Virus record (IMG/VR): IMGVR_UViG_3300035660_000034
Location: 1-39,099 of that record
Source of the DNA: a virus
DNA: 39,099 nt
Reading direction: 5' to 3' (one strand)
Shown here in pieces: positions 1 to 39,012 of the stretch. Both the position numbers and the translations under genes were made by a program. Positions within the stretch are counted from its first letter, which is position 1, and every line of letters begins with the position of its first letter. The notes beneath the pieces are model-generated. The model did no database searches and was not told where the DNA came from. It was given only the letters and a program-made list of their open reading frames with translations.

Positions 1-530
1 GCGTTCGGCTTCAAGAACGCGACCCAATGCGTCTGCGCCTTCTTCCCGCTGCGGTGCCCGTATAGCGGTTTCTCTGGCGTCAGCGCCAGCACTTCTCGCA
101 ACGGTATTTCCGCCTCGCACCACTTGAAGACAAGCGTTCCGCCTGGTCGCAGGACGCGGAAGCACTCCGCGAACCCTTGCCGCAGATCGTCGCGCCATGT
201 GTCGGCAAGCAGCCCGAAATCCCATGCGATTCGCCCGGTCGCCCCAGCTCCCTTGTTGAAGTGCGGCGGATCGAAAACGACGTGCAGAAACGTGTCCGCA
301 GGAAACGGCATGTTGCGGAAGTCCGCCATCATGTCGGGGGCAACCGTCTTCGGCGTCCGACCGATCGTGCCCGGTGTGCCTACGTCAATGATCCGCGTGC
401 CCTGCCGATTGTCCACGTACAGCGCCCTTGCGTCGTGCTGGTCAAACCAGAACATCCGCGATCCGCAGCAGGCGTCCAGCACAGGCGGAAAAGCCGAACC
501 AGACGGTGGAGCATATTCGCTACCGTTCAA
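1..530 (-). CDS. SAM-dependent methyltransferase, C-terminus cut by window edge
   Basis: Class I SAM-dependent methyltransferase-like protein, probably acting on DNA. Near the N-terminus it has a DACCGSRMFWFD segment, resembling a SAM-binding motif. Mid-protein it has VVFDPPHF, a DPPx-type catalytic motif, followed by a FRVLRPGGTLVFKW strand typical of these Rossmann enzymes. The start is TTG at 528-530, because AAGGAGGT lies just upstream and an in-frame TGA excludes a longer start. It overlaps the end of the 89-residue gene by 11 bases. The 3' end runs into a GCCGAAC box at 3-9, the same arrangement as the attC-like site beside the truncated copy at 1610-1680. Substrate is unknown. Family assignment is fairly secure; the specific target is not. 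Confidence 0.85.
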   Translation of the reverse strand, partial: MNGSEYAPPSGSAFPPVLDACCGSRMFWFDQHDARALYVDNRQGTRIIDVGTPGTIGRTPKTVAPDMMADFRNMPFPADTFLHVVFDPPHFNKGAGATGRIAWDFGLLADTWRDDLRQGFAECFRVLRPGGTLVFKWCEAEIPLREVLALTPEKPLYGHRSGKKAQTHWVAFLKPN

Positions 531-550
531 TGCTCACCTCCTTGTTCTGC
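493..550 (+). other. attC-like recombination site (site 1)
   Basis: Imperfect palindrome with attC architecture. The outer box GCCGAAC (493-499) faces GTTCTGC (544-550) with 6 of 7 bases complementary. Spacers are CAGAC and TCCTT. The inner box GGTGGAGCAT (505-514) pairs with ATGCTCACC (530-538) leaving one extra G on the left arm, like the extrahelical base of attC sites. It covers the end of the 89-residue gene and the TTG start and ribosome binding site of the methyltransferase. Identification rests on geometry, not on a search. Confidence 0.6.
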
Positions 551-789
551 GCTTCCTGCCGCTTGAGCATCTCGAAGCCCTCGCGGACGACGGCCTTCAC
601 CAGGTCCATTGCCTCGCCCCGTGTCATGCCGGGCTTGACGGGCAGCTTGGTCATTTGCAGGGCCACCCATTCAACCGGGTCAATGATCTCGGCGGCCATC
701 TCCAGAAACGTGTCTGAGGCGAATGTGACGACATGTCTGCCAACAATCCGCCGCACCTTACGGGCGGCCCGTGGCGTTTTCGTTTTCAT
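520..789 (-). CDS. Hypothetical protein, 89 aa
   Basis: Small basic-then-acidic protein that I do not recognise. The N-terminus is rich in K and R (KTKTPRAARKVRR), followed by an amphipathic, mostly helical body. The ATG at 787-789 is preferred over the longer reading frame because GAGG lies 8 bases upstream and the upstream part overlaps the 67-residue gene. The last residues, QNKEVSIER, are encoded by attC-like site 1. They resemble the ending PNAEVSRER of the Mom-like gene, which also ends in such a site. This suggests the tail comes from the recombination site rather than from the protein family. Confidence 0.7.
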   Translation of the reverse strand: MKTKTPRAARKVRRIVGRHVVTFASDTFLEMAAEIIDPVEWVALQMTKLPVKPGMTRGEAMDLVKAVVREGFEMLKRQEAQNKEVSIER

Positions 790-799
790 TTGTCGGTCC

Positions 800-1003
800 T
801 CAGTTGCCTGGCAGCAGTAGGTAAGTCTGAGTCGGTTTGTCCGGGCGCTTGTCCTGAATCCAGCCGTCCGGGCGCGGCTCGCACTTCTCCTCGATCTTAA
901 TTTCTTTGGCATCCAGCAAGACTTGCTCGCTACAGCAGCGGTATGCAACCTGCAAGCCCTGGGGCTGCATCTGTAAAAAAGCAATCAGTTCGGCTACGGT
1001 CAT
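800..1003 (-). CDS. Hypothetical small phage protein, 67 aa
   Basis: Short protein starting MTVAELIAFLQMQPQGLQVAY. This pattern (a helix, then a 'how many percent are valued' type strand) is common in small uncharacterised phage early proteins. Two adjacent Cys and a C-terminal stretch of polar residues are visible; no known catalytic motif is seen. GGAG sits 4 bases before the ATG. The start lies 20 bases after attC-like site 2, as the first gene of a cassette would. It is 10 bases upstream of the next gene in the same operon. Function unknown. Confidence 0.75.
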   Translation of the reverse strand: MTVAELIAFLQMQPQGLQVAYRCCSEQVLLDAKEIKIEEKCEPRPDGWIQDKRPDKPTQTYLLLPGN

Positions 1004-1023: not shown

Positions 1024-1084
1024 GCCTAACCCGTCGGTCAACCTCGCCCTTCGCTACGCTCGCCGGTTATCTCAACCGTTCGCA
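1024..1084 (+). other. attC-like recombination site (site 2)
   Basis: Outer boxes are GCCTAAC (1024-1030) and GTTCGCA (1078-1084), with 4 of 7 complementary. The left box fits the RYYYAAC consensus, and read on the minus strand it is a canonical GTTRRRY. Spacers are CCGTC and TCAACC, the 5/6 lengths usual for attC. Inner boxes GGTCAACC and GGTTATC pair with one extra C on the left arm. It sits exactly at the 3' end of the 141-residue gene, whose stop codon is inside it. Confidence 0.55.
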
Positions 1085-1497
1085 TACGGATCAAGGCCAA
1101 GGTGCTTCATGTCGCGTTCGTACTGCTGGCGGACCTGCGCGGCCTCTCGGTCCCGGCACGCCGGGCAGTACCCGCTCCGCACGGCGTTCTCAAAGTCGGG
1201 GTGCGTGGTGCCGTATGTCATGTGTTCGGTTCCGTCCGGCGCGAGTCGGCGGATTTCAGACGGCGCCACGCAGCCCCGGCATACCGGCTCGTCGGGGAAC
1301 GCCTCCCATATCTCAACGCTGCTCACCGTGCCGCAGATGTTCCCGCGTTGCGCCAGCAGAGCGCGGGAGGCGTCATTTTCGCTGGCCAGTCCGCGCACGT
1401 ACTTGACCCGCCGACCGTCGCGGTGCGCGAAGACGACGATATGCGTCCGCTCCGGTGTCGGCGGCCAGATCGAAGAAATGCGAACAATCTCTTCCAT
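1072..1497 (-). CDS. Putative zinc-binding protein, 141 aa
   Basis: Unrecognised protein with two CxxC pairs (VCRGC near residue 84 and YCPAC near residue 119) that could bind one zinc ion. The N-terminal half has alternating strands including RTHIVVFAHRDGRRVKYVRG. The ATG at 1495-1497 is chosen because GGAAGGT precedes it; the longer in-frame reading would cross attC-like site 3. The gene is bracketed by attC-like sites 2 and 3, with the stop codon inside site 2, so it has the layout of a mobile gene cassette. No enzymatic motif seen. Function unknown. Confidence 0.75.
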   Translation of the reverse strand: MEEIVRISSIWPPTPERTHIVVFAHRDGRRVKYVRGLASENDASRALLAQRGNICGTVSSVEIWEAFPDEPVCRGCVAPSEIRRLAPDGTEHMTYGTTHPDFENAVRSGYCPACRDREAAQVRQQYERDMKHLGLDPYANG

Positions 1498-1562
1498 GCT
1501 ACCTTCCCTCCGCGCTTCGTGCATGATGATGTCCCTCCCATTGACAATCTGGATCGAAGCCA

Positions 1563-1616
1563 GCCGAACAAGAGCATGGAGCGCGACTCGCTCGCGGCTC
1601 ATGCTCGACGTTCGGC
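1563..1616 (+). other. attC-like recombination site (site 3)
   Basis: The best-formed site. GCCGAAC (1563-1569) and GTTCGGC (1610-1616) are perfect complements. Spacers are AAGA and TCGAC. The inner box GCATGGAGC (1574-1582) pairs with GCTCATGC (1597-1604) with a single extra G on the left arm. The centre is GC-rich and can pair further. The total of 54 nt is close to the shortest known attC sites. It lies between a methyltransferase remnant and the start of the 141-residue gene. Confidence 0.65.
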
Positions 1617-1680
1617 TTCAAGAACGCGATCCAGTGCGTCTGCATGGTCTTGCCGCTCTTGTGCCCGAAAAGCGGAGGTA
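1610..1680 (-). pseudogene. Remnant of a second methyltransferase gene, 3' end only
   Basis: The minus strand reads PPLFGHKSGKTMQTHWIAF followed by LKPN, which aligns with KPLYGHRSGKKAQTHWVAF plus LKPN at the end of the methyltransferase at 1-530. The nucleotide match is visible from 1609 onward against the first ~65 bases of the window. Only about 25 codons remain, with no start codon or catalytic motif, so this is not functional. It runs directly into attC-like site 3. Confidence 0.75.
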
Positions 1681-1767
1681 CTGGAGACAACCTGAAGGGG
1701 GCCAAGGCCGGTCCAGCGTCTAAATCTCCTATCCCAAACCCACGTTCATCCCTATCAAAAGCCTAAT

Positions 1768-4361: not shown

Positions 4362-5219
4362 CTATCCCAGCGGGACCTGTTCGTCCCCGGCGCCCCACTC
4401 CTTATCGAATCTCTTTTTCAACTCGGCGTCCAGAGTCAGATTATCCGGAACGTTCGCCAACCTTTGCGTAAGCGTTTCTCCTGCTGATAGTTTTCGTTCT
4501 TCGGCTTTCCATTCGGCCTCCTGGGCTTCCTCGATACTTATGGCTTGGTCCAGAGCCGGCGAGAGTTGAAGCATCTTGCAGATAATGCGAATCGGTTTGG
4601 ATTTTGCCATGGCTTCCCAACCGCCCACGGCCTGCCAGGGGCTGAACTTGCCTTTTTTCTCGGCCATGTTCATCCGGCGCCGTTCTTCGATTTCCTCGAA
4701 CGTCATCACGTGGAACACCGGAGGGCCACTCTTTAGGTTGCACAGTGCCCAAACATACGTAACCTGCGCGTCTTTTTTGAATTTTGGTTTATGCCTCAAG
4801 AACGGCGTTGTCCCGTATTCAAATTCAAACTCATCTCCCGCCGTCACGATACCAGCCGTGAACGATGCCACCCGGTCGCTCATGTATGCCAGGTGCATCA
4901 GACCGCGATAGCCGACTTGATAGCAGACCTTGCCTTCGCGCGGGATCAGATAGGCATGGCCCAAATTCTTTTCAAGGCTTAGCCCCACGATTGCCGCATT
5001 CACGGCGGCCACGCAGAGACTGGTTCTGTCGAGTTCGAGTAGATATTGATTGTCGTTGCAGACGTTGATGAGGTTCTGAATGAATTTGGCCACGGCATCG
5101 TCTGACCCCAGTATGACCCGAAAGCGAGTCATCCATTCAGGAGTGAAAGTGGCTTTAATGGCGCTTGCGATGACATTCGGGCTGGGCCTCCAGGTTTCGT
5201 CAGGCCACGTCGTCGTCAC
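4362..5219 (-). CDS. recT: RecT-family single-strand annealing protein
   Basis: A 285-residue protein that coats and anneals single-stranded DNA in phage recombination. RecT signatures are clear: LSLEKNLGHAYLIPREGKV, then QVGYRGLMHLAYMSD and FEFEYGTTPFLRHKP, followed by YVWALC and FSPWQAVGGWEAMAKS-type segments. It pairs functionally with the YqaJ exonuclease at 8374-9267, although several genes lie between. The start is GTG at 5217-5219 with AGGAGG 7 bases upstream. The last 11 codons are a copy of a segment from the exonuclease gene (35 identical bases), so the natural C-terminus has been replaced or extended. Confidence 0.93.
   Translation of the reverse strand: MTTTWPDETWRPSPNVIASAIKATFTPEWMTRFRVILGSDDAVAKFIQNLINVCNDNQYLLELDRTSLCVAAVNAAIVGLSLEKNLGHAYLIPREGKVCYQVGYRGLMHLAYMSDRVASFTAGIVTAGDEFEFEYGTTPFLRHKPKFKKDAQVTYVWALCNLKSGPPVFHVMTFEEIEERRRMNMAEKKGKFSPWQAVGGWEAMAKSKPIRIICKMLQLSPALDQAISIEEAQEAEWKAEERKLSAGETLTQRLANVPDNLTLDAELKKRFDKEWGAGDEQVPLG
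4363..4397. repeat. 35-nt direct repeat, copy in recT
   Basis: Identical over 35 bases to 8882-8916 and read in the same frame (GAGDEQVPLG) in both genes. Here it forms the end of recT and supplies its TAG stop. In the exonuclease gene it continues into the conserved YYLQCQHN segment, so the exonuclease copy is probably the source. Confidence 0.9.
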
Positions 5220-8377: not shown

Positions 8378-9267
8378 GTCGCATGCTCCTTATCTGGGAT
8401 GATGCAGAGGGCTTTACCGCGGCGCTCTATTATGCCACCATCAACCCTCCAGCCTTTACCTTCAGCCAGGGCCAGACGGATTCTGTTTTTCAGGTCCTCT
8501 AAATTGGCTTCTTCGGATTTGAAGTTTCCATAGGTAAGGATGGCCTGCCGGGCCAGCCAGTGATGCTCCGGTGGGACGATTACTCTGTCACCCTTGATAT
8601 TGCTATAGACCTTGATGAGCATGTGCTTCTTCTTCTCCTCGCAACTGCCAGCGAGGTCAGCCAGAAATTTCACCGCGGCCTCTTTTTCTGGACCTTGGGA
8701 CGCCAGGGCTTTTTTAATGGATTCGATTTTTCCCCAGGCCTGCCGAGCGGCCACCACGATTTGAATCTGGATTTTACGGTTTTCCTCAATTTGGTAAATC
8801 CGTAGGTCAGTACCCAATAGGACCACGAGGTCCCAATTTTGTTTATTCGTGACCAACATATTGTGCTGGCATTGGAGGTAATATCCCAGCGGGACCTGTT
8901 CGTCCCCGGCGCCCCAATGCCGTAATTGATGGAACCCTGCGAGTTTAAATTCTATCCCATACTCGTACTCGTCCGCGACCGCCCATCCATCGGGGTGACT
9001 GATCAGAAATTTATACGTTTCGTGGCGGTAAAGTTTATCGCCCTCCAGCCTCACGCGGAGGCCGGTCTTGAATTCATAGGCTGCGGCCAGGTCATCCTCC
9101 AGTAATTTGCCCAGCAGCATATTGATGGTCTGTGCGCGCGGCGGAAGCAAACCGAGTTTCCCGGCGATGACATCGTATTCGGTCTGGAATTCTGAGCATT
9201 CAAACGGCGGCAGAGCCGCTATCTGCGAGGCTCCGATACCGGTGAGATGGTCAGCGGATATGCTCAT
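8374..9267 (-). CDS. YqaJ-type viral recombinase exonuclease
   Basis: A 297-residue 5'-3' exonuclease of the YqaJ (lambda-Exo-like, PD-(D/E)XK) family, the partner of RecT in double-strand-break recombination. Motifs in order: GASQIAALPPFE near the N-terminus, GKLLEDDLAAAYE (first acidic residue), LISHPDGW (catalytic Asp), GIEFKLAG (the ExK motif), then YYLQCQHNMLVTN. Start is ATG at 9265-9267 with AAGGA upstream, overlapping the secreted-protein gene by 17 bases. The 35-nt segment 8882-8916 is shared with the end of recT. Confidence in family is high. Confidence 0.92.
   Translation of the reverse strand: MSISADHLTGIGASQIAALPPFECSEFQTEYDVIAGKLGLLPPRAQTINMLLGKLLEDDLAAAYEFKTGLRVRLEGDKLYRHETYKFLISHPDGWAVADEYEYGIEFKLAGFHQLRHWGAGDEQVPLGYYLQCQHNMLVTNKQNWDLVVLLGTDLRIYQIEENRKIQIQIVVAARQAWGKIESIKKALASQGPEKEAAVKFLADLAGSCEEKKKHMLIKVYSNIKGDRVIVPPEHHWLARQAILTYGNFKSEEANLEDLKNRIRLALAEGKGWRVDGGIIERRGKALCIIPDKEHAT
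8882..8916. repeat. 35-nt direct repeat, copy in the exonuclease gene
   Basis: Identical to 4363-4397 in recT, same orientation and frame. In this gene it lies between the ExK catalytic motif and the conserved YYLQCQHN segment. Confidence 0.9.
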
Positions 9268-9706: not shown

Positions 9707-9909
9707 ATATATCTCCGACAAGTCCAGACATGTCTCCGACAAGTCCAGACAAGTCCAGACATGTTAGTCCCGCCGTTGCCCTTTGCCCTTTGCCCCTTGC
9801 CCCTTGCCCCTTGCCCCTTGCCAACAACTGCCCCCCCGCTTTAATTTTAAAACTGCCTAAAATTAAAGCTCCCCCCCCCAAGGGGTGTGTTGTTTTCAAA
9901 AAACCAAAT
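9707..9909 (+). repeat. Composite origin-like repeat, copy B (divergent intergenic region)
   Basis: Same order as copy A but on the plus strand: three ACAAGTCC iterons within CTCCGACAAGTCCAGAC units, a tract of CCCTTTG and CCCCTTG heptamers, a C-tract, the same perfect 12-bp palindrome GCTTTAATTTTA / TAAAATTAAAGC at 9839-9870, and a C-rich end followed by TTTTCAAAAAACCAAAT. It lies between the divergent early and late operons and codes for no convincing protein. It could be a second origin, a regulatory array, or both. Confidence 0.75.
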
Positions 9910-26616: not shown

Positions 26617-27651
26617 ATGTACGGAACGGCGCTTTACGGCGGCGGGATGCCGGAGGGGAAATACGGGGCAAGCGGAGAATCCCAGGCTGGAGGCGGGGGC
26701 GGCAGTGGTTTGGGGGGATGGAGTGGCGCACTCCAGGCCTTACTCGACAAACAGATGGCCGAGAACGAGAAGGTAGGGGCGGAGAATCGAGCGAACTGGG
26801 GAGAAGCGCTGAACTACGCCAAGGGCCAGCCGCAACGCTTCGCGGCGGACCCCCTGACTCAGGGCGCCCGGGCATTATCCCAGCGTCTCCTCAACGATCC
26901 CGAGGCCATAAACGACCGTACCCAGCAGTTCATCATCAACAGGGCCAGCAACCTCACCAATGCGGCCGCCAATGCGCAGCGTTCACGCCTGCGGGGCGAT
27001 CTCGGGGCCGCCGGTATGTTAGGCGGTTCCAGCGAACAGGCCATGCTGGACCGCATGGAACGCGAAAGAATGGCCCGTCTCATGGGCTTGACCTCAGACC
27101 TTGAGATTCAGCGCGCGAACCAGAGGAACCGCGACATCATGGCAGCGAGTGGAATGGGCGCACAACGTGCAATGGAACAGGCTGGCCAGGAGCAGGCGCT
27201 CTACAGTGAGTGGATGCGGAATTTGCCGATGTACCAGCCGACGGACATGAGCGGTTACGGCGCGCTTTATGCCGCGCAGATGGGCGGCATGGGCGGCGGT
27301 ATGGGCGGCGGTATGGGCATGGGGGGTGGCGGGGGCGGAGGAAGACGCGAACTTTCGCCGGGATTTGGGGGCGGGTTCGGGCAGGAGCAACCGGAACGGC
27401 CGGGGATCAGCGGATGGGGCTTGAATGCTGGTGCTCGATATCCGCAAACTGCGGGAGAATGGGCAGCGAGTTTGGGCATGACACCCTTGAATGCCGGTGC
27501 CGCCAGAAGTTATGCGCCTCAATCTGAATCTGATTGGCAGAACACGCTTTTTGGCGGTGGTGGAAGCAATTCGCTGTATGGACCGCAGAGTCAGAATCCA
27601 TTTGGAGGAACGCCCTTTGGCGAAGCAAGTCCGGCGGAAAATTGGTATTGA
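26617..27651 (+). CDS. Glycine-rich internal virion (ejection) protein, 344 aa
   Basis: First of three ejection-type genes. The N-terminal half is helical and Ala/Arg-rich (NEKVGAENRANWGEALNYAK, NLTNAAANAQRSRLRGDLGA, QAMLDRMERERMARLMG). The C-terminal half is very rich in Gly and Met (GGMGGGMGGGMGMGGGGGG), then Gly/Ser/Asn-rich. This composition fits podovirus internal core proteins that are ejected into the host. AGGAGG precedes the ATG. A 112-nt piece of it (26964-27075) is copied in inverted form at 1768-1880. Confidence 0.65.
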   Translation: MYGTALYGGGMPEGKYGASGESQAGGGGGSGLGGWSGALQALLDKQMAENEKVGAENRANWGEALNYAKGQPQRFAADPLTQGARALSQRLLNDPEAINDRTQQFIINRASNLTNAAANAQRSRLRGDLGAAGMLGGSSEQAMLDRMERERMARLMGLTSDLEIQRANQRNRDIMAASGMGAQRAMEQAGQEQALYSEWMRNLPMYQPTDMSGYGALYAAQMGGMGGGMGGGMGMGGGGGGGRRELSPGFGGGFGQEQPERPGISGWGLNAGARYPQTAGEWAASLGMTPLNAGAARSYAPQSESDWQNTLFGGGGSNSLYGPQSQNPFGGTPFGEASPAENWY

Positions 27652-34443: not shown

Positions 34444-34468
34444 TCATGGTCGAACCTCCCCTTGGGCG
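34444..34468 (+). other. Possible half attC-like site at the early/late junction
   Basis: On the plus strand GGTCGAACC, then TCCC, then CTTGGGC. The pattern is like the right half of site 4 (GGCTCACC, TCCGC, GTTGGGC), and it encodes the end of the PPCQ gene. No left half is seen between it and the late operon. Weak evidence. Confidence 0.25.
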
Positions 34469-35133
34469 GGCCGCGCTTGACGCGCCAAACGTAGAAGAAC
34501 GTCGCGGAAGGCAACGGGCGTGGCATTGCGTATTCTGGTTTTATCTTTGCCCCCGACCATTGCCAGTATGCCAATTCGCCTGGCCCTTTCGTATCCGTGC
34601 TTTGCCAGTGCCTTCGGGTCAATGCGCTGTTCCCCAATGGTCCAATCCAGCTCTAACGGTTTTTGCCCTCCGATGTATAGAAGCCATGTGCCTTTTCGTG
34701 CAATGTGGCCATAGTTTCCTTGCTCGACGTAGCAGGTGTAAGCGTGGCTTACACTGCTTATTTTTATCCACCCGTTGCCACGCCCTGGCTTTTGTATTCC
34801 GAAGTGTCCCCATGCGTGCGAGTCGGCAGGGTGTTCCAGTACTCCGCCAAAATCACGAATTGATTTCAGCGCAGACTCAAAGCATCCGCCGTCGTCGCCC
34901 ATCTTGAACCGGTGCGGCTTCCTGGTGCTACCATGCCAAAACCTGCCCCACCGCTGGCACGGCGGATGCGCCACGACCGGATGCGGCCCACGGTACAACC
35001 GTGCGTCCCGCTTTATATCCCAAGGATCAACACCAGGCAATCCGAAATAGCAACCGTCCGTCTCCACGAATAGGGCTGCAACAGGCGCGAAAATCGTCGA
35101 ACAATTCGGTCGAGCCAATTCGCTATCGCTCAC
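34444..35133 (-). CDS. PPCQ-motif DNA cytosine-methyltransferase-like protein, 229 aa
   Basis: Contains AHPPCQRWGR (residues ~54-63), like catalytic motif IV of cytosine-C5 DNA methyltransferases (PPCQ, Cys nucleophile), and FGGVLEHPADSHAW, where motif VI (ENV) would be. The FxGxG SAM-binding motif at the N-terminus is not seen, so this may be a diverged or partial enzyme, or another family with a similar loop. The GTG start at 35131-35133 follows GGAGGT, all inside attC-like site 4, and overlaps the Mom-like gene by 11 bases. Last gene of the operon before the convergent late operon. Confidence 0.5.
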   Translation of the reverse strand: MSDSELARPNCSTIFAPVAALFVETDGCYFGLPGVDPWDIKRDARLYRGPHPVVAHPPCQRWGRFWHGSTRKPHRFKMGDDGGCFESALKSIRDFGGVLEHPADSHAWGHFGIQKPGRGNGWIKISSVSHAYTCYVEQGNYGHIARKGTWLLYIGGQKPLELDWTIGEQRIDPKALAKHGYERARRIGILAMVGGKDKTRIRNATPVAFRDVLLRLARQARPAQGEVRP

Positions 35134-35153
35134 GGCTCACCTCCGCGTTGGGC
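35096..35153 (+). other. attC-like recombination site (site 4)
   Basis: GTCGAAC (35096-35102) and GTTGGGC (35147-35153), the latter a canonical GTTRRRY. Spacers are AATTC and TCCGC. The inner box GGTCGAGCC pairs with GGCTCACC leaving one extra C on the left arm, as in known attC sites. It contains the stop of the Mom-like gene and the ribosome binding site and GTG start of the PPCQ gene. Confidence 0.65.
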
Positions 35154-35656
35154 CTACGAATCGCCAGCGCGAAACGGTGCTTGCTCACCCTTGGCCTTCG
35201 CTCGACAACGGCGTCCGCTGGCATGTTGCCCCGCCGTCCGTACTTCTGCCCGGTCCTCGCGTCGTAGTAGTCGCAACGTGGGGACTTGCGCTCATCATCC
35301 GTGCGACCATCCTCGCGCCAGTTGGCGGCCCGGTAAATCGTTCCCTTGTGTCCGGCGCTCGGATCGGCGTAGCTGACCAGGTTGCAGACATCCGGGCGGT
35401 GTTGCCTGATCCATTTCACGCTCTGCGCGATCAACCACGTTTCGGCGTTCTGCGGCACCTCGTCCAGCAGGTACAGCCGCGCAAGCTCCCATGTCTTTCC
35501 GCCGTAGCGGACATCGGACTCGCGGGGCGGGGCGGAGTAGATCACGCACCCTATCGGGCGCGTGTCTCGCAGCATCGCCAGCGCCAGCAGGACAATGGCC
35601 GGCCGCTTGTGCAGGTAGTGCGCCCTCACGAACCCGTCAACGGCGGTCACGCTCAC
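35123..35656 (-). CDS. Mom-like DNA-modification acyltransferase
   Basis: A 177-residue GNAT-fold protein resembling phage Mu Mom, which adds an acetamido-type group to adenine in DNA and protects it from restriction enzymes. Matching segments: TWELARLYLLDEVPQNAETW, LIAQSVKWIRQHRPDV, then LVSYADPSAGHKGTIYRAAN. The GTG at 35654-35656 has no good ribosome binding site, and the frame is open upstream without a usual start, so translation may depend on coupling or an activator, as Mu mom needs Com. It ends PNAEVSRER in attC-like site 4. Target base unproven. Confidence 0.8.
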   Translation of the reverse strand: MSVTAVDGFVRAHYLHKRPAIVLLALAMLRDTRPIGCVIYSAPPRESDVRYGGKTWELARLYLLDEVPQNAETWLIAQSVKWIRQHRPDVCNLVSYADPSAGHKGTIYRAANWREDGRTDDERKSPRCDYYDARTGQKYGRRGNMPADAVVERRPRVSKHRFALAIRRPNAEVSRER

Positions 35657-36901: not shown

Positions 36902-37450
36902 CTAAATCTCACGAATGTACGCCACCGGTTGAATGACGCCGGTATCCGCGGCCTGCTTCGCCACCATGGCATCACACGCGATGGCGGAATGCAGTACGTC
37001 GGTGGGTTTCCAGGCGAACTTTACCTTGGCGCCGAGGTTCAGCAGGGCAGTCAAGATTTCCTCCGGCAGTTTTTGCCCGTCAATCACTACTGCACAGGCC
37101 GGCCTGAAATATGTCTCGAATTTCTCGCCGAACTTTTGGCGTAGGTCGGTCTCACACGTCGCGGGAATGGCGGCATAACGGTTTTCCGTCGTGTACCTGC
37201 ACTCGCCGAGTTGAACCGAGGAATAGGGTTTCCCGTCGGCCTGACTCCGCTCGCGCCGATACTCCTCAGCTATCGGCTTCAACTGCTCATCGATGCCTCT
37301 CACCCGGGCATCGAGATCCCCCATCTGCTGCTTCAGTTTCGGCCGTTCGGCGGCCATCTCCGCCAACTCTCCGACTAGCTCCAGCGTCAGCGATTCTGTC
37401 GCCGTCTTTGTCGCCACCGCCGCCGCCTTCAATCGCTCAAGCGTATTCAT
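36902..37450 (-). CDS. Coiled-coil protein, possible Gam-like, 182 aa
   Basis: N-terminal ~80 residues form a strong coiled coil (LVGELAEMAAERPKLKQQMG, DLDARVRGIDEQLKPIAEEY). A smaller globular part follows with GKPYSSVQLGECRYTTENRY and EKFETYFRPACAVVIDGQKL. Coiled-coil phage proteins next to a ligase could protect DNA ends like Mu Gam, but no specific motif confirms it. ATG ATG at 37453/37450, overlapping the ligase stop. Not recognised with confidence. Confidence 0.6.
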   Translation of the reverse strand: MNTLERLKAAAVATKTATESLTLELVGELAEMAAERPKLKQQMGDLDARVRGIDEQLKPIAEEYRRERSQADGKPYSSVQLGECRYTTENRYAAIPATCETDLRQKFGEKFETYFRPACAVVIDGQKLPEEILTALLNLGAKVKFAWKPTDVLHSAIACDAMVAKQAADTGVIQPVAYIREI

Positions 37451-38043
37451 CATCGTCCCTCGCCGTACCTCACCTTGAACCACTCCGGGTTGGCCAAGCA
37501 CGCGCTCAGACCGCCCTTCAGTCCGGAGCTTGCCTTCCGCACCACTACTCCCTCGACATCCGGGTTACTCAGGCCGTGGATGTAGAGGTCCACCATGCCG
37601 GGATTCTGAATGGTCTCCGCCCATTCTATCCCGGAGGGTTTCAACGGCAGCCATGCGTGTTGCATGGTGTGCCCCAGCAACACCGAACGTTCCCCGAAGG
37701 GCGTCCGGCCCAGCCATTGCCCCTCGTACATCAGGATATCGAAGGCTATCAGCCGATGCTCACCGCCCTTCTTGCGAGGGCCAACCCATTCGCAGTCAAT
37801 GGCCAGCGGCAGGTCCGGCCAGCTCATCATCCGCCAGGCCTCCATCACTTCGGCAGGCATGGCCTTTGCCGCGGCGCCGCTGCGTTTAGCCTGCCAGACC
37901 CAACCGCCATCGCAGAGCCATCCGGTCCGGCGGTAGCCATCCCATTTCAGTTGCGCCAGCCACGTGCGCGCCGGCGCCCTGTCCAGCTCACGCAGAAAAT
38001 CCAGCGAGACTGGGCATGGATCGTCTGGCCAGTGGTAGATCAT
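37450..38043 (-). CDS. Minimal ATP-dependent DNA ligase (nucleotidyltransferase domain)
   Basis: A 197-residue protein with the ligase motifs: KWDGYR (33-38, the lysine that takes AMP), DCEW (83-86, motif III), EGVVVRK (164-170, motif IV) and WFKVRY (188-193, motif V). The usual C-terminal OB-fold domain with motif VI is absent, because the protein ends soon after motif V. It may need a partner, act on nicks poorly, or be a remnant. The ATG overlaps the WD40 stop (ATGA). Confidence 0.85.
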   Translation of the reverse strand: MIYHWPDDPCPVSLDFLRELDRAPARTWLAQLKWDGYRRTGWLCDGGWVWQAKRSGAAAKAMPAEVMEAWRMMSWPDLPLAIDCEWVGPRKKGGEHRLIAFDILMYEGQWLGRTPFGERSVLLGHTMQHAWLPLKPSGIEWAETIQNPGMVDLYIHGLSNPDVEGVVVRKASSGLKGGLSACLANPEWFKVRYGEGR

Positions 38044-38558
38044 TTGCGCACTTCCTTCCCGGTGCTCACGTCCCAGAGGCGGATGGTCCTGTCTCCACTT
38101 CCAGAAGCCAGCGTCCGGCCGTCAGGAGAGAAACTGACGGACCAGACCCAACCGTCATGCCCTTCGAATTTGCGCACTTCCTTCCCGGTGCTCACGTCCC
38201 AGAGGCGGATGGTCCTGTCATCACTTCCTGAAGCCAGCGTCCGGCCGTCAGGCGAGAAACTGACGGACGAGACCCAGGAGCTGTGCCCTTCGAATTTGCG
38301 CACTTCCTTCCCGGTGCTCACGTCCCAGAGGCGGATGGTCCTGTCTCCACTTCCAGAAGCCAGCGTCCGGCCGTCAGGAGAGAAACTGACGGACTGGACC
38401 CAACCGTCATGCCCTTCGAGTTTGCGCACTTCCTTCCCGGTGCTCACGTCCCAGAGGCGGATGGTCCCGTCATCACTTCCTGAAGCCAGCGTCCGGCCGT
38501 CGGGAGAGAAACTGACGGACGAGACCCTAGCATCTGCCGTCATCTGCTCTCGTGTCAT
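38040..38558 (-). CDS. WD40-repeat protein with four near-identical blades
   Basis: A 172-residue protein that is almost entirely WD40 repeats of 42 residues: VSFSPDGRTLASGS, TIRLWDVSTGKEVRK and EGH..WV, four times, the last ending right after GKEVRK. The differences lie at a few positions only: the residue before SVSF (S, Q, S, W), DD or GD after GS, G or R next, and DG or SS before WV. Such a propeller usually has seven blades, so four would need to assemble into oligomers. Start ATG 38556-38558 with AAGGAG upstream. Host-derived scaffold or decoy is a guess. Very unusual for a phage. Confidence 0.88.
   Translation of the reverse strand: MTREQMTADARVSSVSFSPDGRTLASGSDDGTIRLWDVSTGKEVRKLEGHDGWVQSVSFSPDGRTLASGSGDRTIRLWDVSTGKEVRKFEGHSSWVSSVSFSPDGRTLASGSDDRTIRLWDVSTGKEVRKFEGHDGWVWSVSFSPDGRTLASGSGDRTIRLWDVSTGKEVRK
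38043..38530. repeat. Tandem 126-nt repeats of the WD40 gene
   Basis: Nearly identical units begin at 38043, 38169, 38295 and 38421, each 126 nt (42 codons). Units 1 and 3 share silent and coding differences from units 2 and 4 (TCA GGA AGT GAT versus TCT GGA AGT GGA), so the array was built by duplicating a two-unit block. Copy number is probably unstable. Confidence 0.9.
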
Positions 38559-38914: not shown

Positions 38915-38937
38915 CGTTTGCCTCCTTTTTCATCTGG

Positions 38938-39012
38938 GCCGTCAGGAGAGAAACTGACGGACTGGACCCAATCGCTATGCCCTTCGAATTTGCGCACTTC
39001 CTTCCCGGTGCT
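38938..39012 (-). pseudogene. Stray WD40 repeat fragment
   Basis: 75 nt that read STGKEVRKFEGHSDWVQSVS plus FSPDG on the minus strand, in register with the repeats of the WD40 gene 400 bases away. There is no start codon; the frame begins right after a TAA of the membrane gene. Its SDW is not found in the intact array, so it is not a simple copy of one unit. Confidence 0.85.

Follow-up and report, generated by a model that had tools for sequence, protein, structure and literature searches.

The window, meaning the whole stretch of 39,099 nucleotides that was analyzed, is a linear virus record carrying genes for a large terminase, a portal protein, and RecE-like and RecT-like proteins. Two of its minus-strand genes meet in an 11-bp overlap: a Mom-like DNA modification gene (35123..35656, 177 aa) stops at TAG (35125-35123), and a gene for a 229-aa product with a PPCQ motif (34444..35133) starts at GTG (35133). 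Both codons fall within an element at 35096-35153 (site A), which on the plus strand reads GTCGAAC / AATTC / GGT-C-GAGCC / 17-nt loop / GGCTC-ACC / TCCGC / GTTGGGC. The initial annotation had described this element, with the sequence and coordinates recovered here, as an attC-like site spanning the end of the Mom-like gene and the start of the PPCQ gene, and each part of that description held. The R' box, GTTGGGC (35147-35153), fits the consensus GTTRRRY as printed in the consulted text of PMC9892861, with its G^TT cleavage point, and the crossover is predicted from the sequence at 35147/35148. The R'' box, GTCGAAC (35096-35102), is one base off RYYYAAC and pairs with R' at five of seven positions, while the arms L'' and L' form eight Watson-Crick pairs with one extra C and are set off by spacers of five nucleotides on either side.

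The Mom product is a member of the family of Mom DNA-modification proteins (Pfam PF25680, E 1.3e-24, 87.5 bits against a curated cut-off of 27.1; phrog_1384, E 4.6e-28). The PPCQ protein matches phrog_12600 (E 1.7e-62), a family of unknown function, and had no match in Pfam, NCBIfam, or PADLOC. The best Foldseek matches of its predicted structure (pLDDT 78) are C5-cytosine DNA methyltransferases, a class that includes M.HaeIII and the DNMT fold, at E 8.5e-3 with none reaching 1e-3. The methyltransferase-like label given to this gene earlier amounts here to a weak fold resemblance, accompanied by the PPCQ motif, and not to a family assignment, the protein being unlike the C5-cytosine methyltransferases in having no sequence-family match. 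A search of PDB sequences with the PPCQ profile returned one weak match, to a repeat protein, which was taken as chance.

Recognition of attC sites relied largely on a covariance model, R1, built from 23 viral attCs with the window excluded; R1 is a home-made model rather than HattCI or IntegronFinder, its training sites came from a scanner that demands pairing, and its short calibration makes its E-values rough. R1 found four sites in the window, all on the plus strand and antisense to the minus-strand genes. Site A scored highest (33.2 bits, E 2.2e-6), followed by sites at 1563..1616 (29.5 bits, E 1.9e-5; 7.8 bits on the opposite strand), 1024..1083 (23.6 bits, E 5.4e-4), and 493..550 (site B; 22.1 bits, E 1.3e-3), with the next best match at 9.3 bits (E 2.1). 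The model recognizes ordinary bacterial attCs (653 matches in 80 bacterial loci) and gave only one match at E≤0.1 on a background of 287 kb of Mom-gene loci. Across the 23 sites, covariation of arms and R boxes was 0.408, compared with 0.026-0.103 for slid structures, a score that leans on the choice of sites by a scanner requiring pairing.

Pattern searches agreed with the model. A strict architecture (5-nt spacers, eight Watson-Crick arm pairs with one extra base, and at least five R-box pairs) occurs twice in the window, at 493-550 and 35096-35153; it appeared at least once in 1.3% of 300 Markov-1 copies of the window and twice in none of the 300. A looser pattern gave three rows against a mean of 0.85 in 40 Euler shuffles (0.425 with at least five R pairs). 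A structural scan for two R boxes, 5-6-nt spacers, eight arm pairs, and one extra base returned 49 rows from the window and 101 viral loci, compared with 6, 4, and 1 in three random copies, and found textbook attC arrays adjoining PPCQ genes in loci L015, L043, and L051. Single-strand folding of 71 nt around site A showed no unusual stability (z 0.35 and 0.44 for the two strands). Sites A and B are 77% identical over 52 nt in a repeat search and so are not independent, which would suit a chance resemblance propagated by duplication of a gene junction inside one phage. Such an origin is nevertheless highly improbable, given four separate R1 matches, the roughly 1.3% chance of the strict form per window, and the recurrence of the same joints with different neighbors in L123/L275, L124, and L121. 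The site at 35096-35153 is confirmed as real and as having the architecture of an integron attC.

The attCs at 493, 1024, and 1563 cluster within 1.2 kb. Site B has an R'' box GCCGAAC (493-499) and an R' box GTTCTGC (544-550), and the R boxes at 1563-1616, GCCGAAC and GTTCGGC, are fully complementary (7/7 pairs); some of the window sites with imperfect R boxes, that is, all but 1563-1616, may be relics. All genes of this array lie on the minus strand. A DNA methyltransferase cassette gene (1..530; phrog_954, E 2e-59; PADLOC MTase_II, E 7.8e-59) starts with TTG inside site B; toward the contig edge its 3' end passes into an R' box (GTTCGGC, 3-9), where truncation has probably removed a fifth attC. 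An 89-aa gene (520..789) has its last codons, NKEVSIER and stop, inside site B, and a 67-aa gene (800..1003) starts about 20 nt after the attC at 1024-1083. Between this attC and the one at 1563-1616 lies a 176-aa ORF (1072..1602) with no Pfam or PADLOC match, whose first ATG is inside the attC, a later ATG also being possible. The 3' remnant of a second methyltransferase gene (1617..1720) ends in the R' box GCCGAAC, as the intact gene does, and is an 82% copy of window 2-68 and 84.8% identical to L124 588-653. The earlier claim that the first and third sites adjoin methyltransferase genes is correct for the first; at the third, the neighbor is the 3' remnant only (about 1617-1720).

The window, possibly a fragment, has no match to integron integrase (TIGR02249) or to a tyrosine recombinase. 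Because four attCs are present and an integrase has no match, the window is a phage CALIN, an attC cluster without an integron integrase. The PPCQ gene is probably the last cassette of the array. R1 found no attC near the Mom 5' end or the PPCQ 3' end, and the Mom gene of the window is not bracketed by attC sites. Phage CALINs have been reported in TJE1, P12002L, and PH101, and of six phage attCs assayed with IntI1, five recombined (Qi et al., 2023, PMC9892861, as far as its consulted text goes). The window resembles the CALINs described there in holding attC arrays without an integrase and DNA methyltransferase genes among the cassettes, and a phage CALIN with modification genes is therefore a kind already known. 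R1 gave no match at E≤0.01 in P12002L, although its CALIN is published; in this Polaribacter phage (L166, 37305-38816), an annotated Mom-like gene adjoins a DNA methyltransferase gene. Another phage record that contains an attC array (G028, the record of L145) encodes a 120-aa ORF (L257 1453-1815, minus strand) that opens with the N-terminal portion of an integron integrase and continues into sequence unrelated to it; read from its sequence, the ORF is an integrase relic.

Several other features of the window were recorded. Tandem 126-nt repeats encoding WD40 units (up to 97% alike) occupy 38042-38527 and 38937-39012 on the minus strand, with a further unit near the contig end past an unrelated small ORF, and a small gene with an ATP-dependent DNA-ligase domain (37450-38043, minus strand) partially matches NHEJ ligases. 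A 147-nt inverted repeat, 99% complementary (2267-2413 / 9730-9876), flanks the left arm of minus-strand genes. Beside the attC cluster lies a copied piece of a plus-strand gene, seen as two adjacent inverted repeats (93% and 96%; 1768-1880 / 26964-27075). A perfect 35-nt direct repeat (4363-4397 / 8882-8916) lies in the RecT-like and RecE-like genes, both of whose products contain GAGDEQVPLG.

The adjacency of site and genes noted earlier is correct, with an amendment: the attC and the genes have opposite orientations. In the standard cassette plan, the attC lies 3' of its gene in the same orientation, an arrangement found at none of the four window sites. The generality of this reversal was surveyed with one strict pattern, which yielded 41 stretches of uncultivated viral contigs and 88 bacterial stretches, 80 listed bacterial loci being surveyed, and flanking genes in both sets were scored with the same crude gene caller, which, judged by stop codon, found 10 of the 12 genes annotated in TJE1 but neither the Mom nor the PPCQ gene of the window. 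Among pattern-only sites, both neighbors were antisense at 33 and sense at none of the 50 viral sites, compared with two antisense and 25 sense among 98 bacterial ones. By structural scan, 120 viral sites in 39 loci gave 35 antisense loci, one sense locus, and three ties, whereas 365 bacterial sites in 75 loci gave 62 sense, eight antisense, four ties, and one unscored. These site counts include near-identical viral loci; with near-duplicates removed, the viral loci comprised 28 antisense, one sense, and three ties (Fisher p 2e-16 for 28/1 versus 8/62). Protein-seeded sets behaved alike, with all eight PPCQ-seeded loci antisense and, of seven methyltransferase-seeded loci, five antisense, one sense, and one unscored.

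The sole viral locus with sense polarity, L157, belongs to a record that, alone among 48, has an integron integrase over the cut-off (the 48 records were searched with L044, L048, L133, and L163 left out as near copies, and a second search covered 17). The published phage TJE1, whose attCs are active, also has sense polarity, so the inversion is not universal. Terminases found in 11 of 25 longer records (the union of two family searches) support the view that many attC-bearing records are real phages, and a criterion of 1 kb of shared DNA sorts the 52 attC loci into 41 groups. The viral sites are like those of bacterial sedentary chromosomal and mobile integrons in attC architecture, and in bacteria, too, the TAA of a gene often lies in an R box. 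They differ from bacterial integrons in polarity (sense in 62 of 75 bacterial loci and in one of 39 viral loci), and the window differs as well in having no integrase match.

Because the attC is antisense, it stands at the 5' end of its own gene. In this layout the R' box sits at the stop of the upstream gene and the attC precedes the gene it belongs to; in 48 of 91 cases the last base of the stop codon lies 5 nt inside the R' end (GCC TAA C). The L124 unit, with its attC on the 5' side of the gene, and the end of the L044 array, where an R' box is present and no attC follows the last gene, are both as expected under inverted polarity but not under the standard layout. It also follows from inverted polarity that the recombinogenic bottom strand is the coding strand. 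The available text of PMC9892861 describes cassettes running in the same direction, with divergent attCs in P12002L, in contrast to the window, where the attC is antisense, 5' of the gene, and overlaps both genes. Systematic inversion and attCs that overlap coding sequence on both sides look new, no paper on inverted phage cassette polarity having been found in the portion of the open-licence literature covered.

Sites A and B also carry the signals that start translation. Each contains a Shine-Dalgarno sequence (GGAGG) and a start codon; in site A, GGAGG lies in the arm and spacer and the GTG of the PPCQ gene in the loop. Site A thereby supplies a ribosome-binding site, a start codon, and leader codons to one gene and a tail to the preceding one, the last Mom codons (NAEVSRER and stop) being inside it. 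A short tail of the form N-x-EVS-x-ER, with its stop, is encoded for the preceding gene by sequence that follows the R' box. Gene starts inside an attC also occur in L113 and L107, and a leader like AVAGPVE-x-TVRP reads through the reversed arms of long-loop attCs in L126, L134, L138, L145, L149, L150, and L160. Raw counts of ORFs reading through sites in the antisense direction separate poorly (31 ORFs at 97 viral sites versus 55 at 299 bacterial sites), and the case for a translated attC is accordingly confined to what the eye finds in the sequences of the window, L113, L107, L103, L124, and L275 and to the shared leader motif.

Such joints could instead be read as mRNA hairpins for translational coupling that keep the Shine-Dalgarno sequence inaccessible before translation of the upstream gene, with the likeness to attC incidental. 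Stop, Shine-Dalgarno sequence, and start overlap with equal spacing in 493-550 and 35096-35153, and an arm pairs with the Shine-Dalgarno region. Either strand folds weakly, however, the Shine-Dalgarno sequence is placed differently in the other two window sites, the arrays that trained R1 mostly start genes 20-40 nt beyond the attC, and full cassettes end at R' boxes, all of which make coupling an improbable account of the repeat. The sequence may nonetheless have translational coupling as an additional function.

The attC reading of site A is strengthened by comparison with other phages. In a blastn comparison (E≤1e-3) with L275, a 16-kb stretch from the record of L123, the window had only two DNA matches, and both are attCs: 35100-35156 (89.7% over 58) and 489-548 (88.3% over 60). 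Apart from one of these two attC sites, the stretches had no protein-level match at 1e-5, and the genes flanking the shared attCs differ. A 55-nt copy of site A (90.9%) is flanked by different genes in L123/L275, where the upstream gene has in common with the Mom gene its attC-encoded tail (RRPNAEVSRER and stop in the window, QNTPNVEVSRER and stop in L275). Site B belongs to the one cassette shared with L124, an otherwise different phage from a 47-kb record, in which window 3-546, one attC with its methyltransferase gene, corresponds to L124 653-125 at 70% DNA identity. The visible ends of this segment lie inside the R' boxes at 3-9 and 544-550; its attC at 493-550 is identical at 53 of 54 nt, though the segment as a whole is at 70%. 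The match at the 3' end of the L124 methyltransferase stops right after GCCGAAC, a word that likewise closes the 1617-1720 remnant and the contig-edge copy.

Other phages part at the same positions. L043 and L074 have in common one cassette of attC and PPCQ gene (87%), both ends of which fall at R', and near-identical phages differ by one whole cassette (L146/L149 versus L159; L134 versus L160). L043 and L044 are 99.97% identical over 12,015 bases and separate at the last base of an R' box, where only L043 has an attC. Among 235 ends of alignments, an R' crossover is no more than 15 nt away for 39 (mean of random shifts 9.2; highest of 200, 18), and 31 are near R'' (random mean 9.9), near-duplicate loci inflating both counts; the surplus at R'' is also consistent with a change of attC beside genes whose sequence stayed the same. 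Boundaries at R' are thus seen in L124, L043/L074, and L043/L044, and for the site at 35096 itself, the evidence is a shared attC with different flanks.

These comparisons bear on a further alternative, in which the sites are attCs by origin and serve as homology handles for recombination of the RecE/RecT type, much as boundary sequences do in mosaic phages, with no integrase taking part. The window encodes RecE-like and RecT-like proteins and has no match to an integron integrase, the attCs at single-cassette differences are 96-97% identical and the L124 site 98%, and attCs shared at 88-98% could recombine by homology. Set against this are the keeping of structure across very different sequences (the covariation described above, in a leaning sample), the parting of L043 and L044 at an R' box with an attC on one side only, and the position of the L043/L074 cassette ends at R'. 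Exchange by homology alone is for these reasons unlikely, while keeping an appreciable share of the probability. Exchange at these attC sites, as such, is supported. The suggestion in the initial annotation that modification genes travel as exchangeable modules is upheld by the shared cassettes with R' ends (L124, L043/L074) and by window sites found between different genes (L275).

Loci recovered with the window's modification proteins comprised 83 for PPCQ relatives, 21 for Mom, and 20 for the methyltransferase of the 5' array. No stretch, among searched stretches of at most ~20 kb, held two of the three window genes together, and a fixed gene content and order across all relatives, which would have spoken against exchange, was not seen. 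An attC stood at the 5' end of methyltransferase relatives in five of 18 loci (L103, L107, L110, L112, and L113; E<0.01). Among 80 loci with PPCQ relatives, attCs in this 5' position were found in L043/L044/L048, L074, and L080 and, by structural scan, in L015; just upstream of Mom, an attC was found in one of 21 loci (L090). The window is unlike other viral Mom loci in pairing Mom with PPCQ, a PPCQ relative being present in none of those 21. Because most of the 80 PPCQ loci and most Mom loci have no attC, cassette carriage is one travel route of these genes and not the sole one. A search for relatives of the phage backbone gave four distant loci with the replication protein and none with a 1728-aa protein, leaving no close relatives in which gene content at the sites could be compared. 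Among named phages, those carrying a PPCQ relative (Persinger, Jess A, MW202476, and Doze) yielded one weak R1 match (L266, 17.8 bits, E 0.056) and no strong attC. Two clean viral attCs had no BLAST match in named phages, and the array neighborhood had no plasmid match. Pfam named few of 74 phage cassette proteins: three N6_N4 methylases and one Lar restriction-alleviation protein.

The element at 35096-35153 is very probably an attC that joins the end of the Mom gene to the PPCQ cassette; it is inverted in polarity and part of an integrase-less phage cluster whose genes would be swapped by a host integrase. The cassette unit then consists of an attC, a ribosome-binding site, a gene, and its stop, and a host integron integrase acting in trans would recombine the folded attC bottom strand, here the coding strand, at G^TT of R'. 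Single genes, including anti-restriction DNA-modification genes, could in this manner be inserted, lost, or swapped between phages and be expressed from the phage's own operon. We infer the supply of integrase in trans, the choice of strand, and the present-day activity of the degenerate window sites from the arrangement of these elements.

A broader proposal is more tentative, and we place it somewhat short of an even chance: that environmental phages keep their own pool of inverted attCs, in which the recombinogenic coding strand is exposed during phage growth on the lagging-strand template or in R-loops, and that the system is built for fast swapping, with the attC as a translated, in-frame joint. 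In Vibrio cholerae, moving attC bottom strands to the lagging-strand template strongly increased excision (PMC11023631, in its consulted text), and where phage genes run with the fork, inversion would presumably place attC bottom strands on that template. Given the effect of array inversion in V. cholerae, the arrangement in phages leads directly to a testable prediction about the rate of exchange. Phage CALINs were known, but had been described from few isolates; if the inversion is general, phage cassettes would form a separate population with a consistent convention rather than being just borrowed bacterial ones, and such a population, if it exists, bears on the open question of cassette origin. 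Phages could by these means trade single anti-restriction genes with base-level precision.
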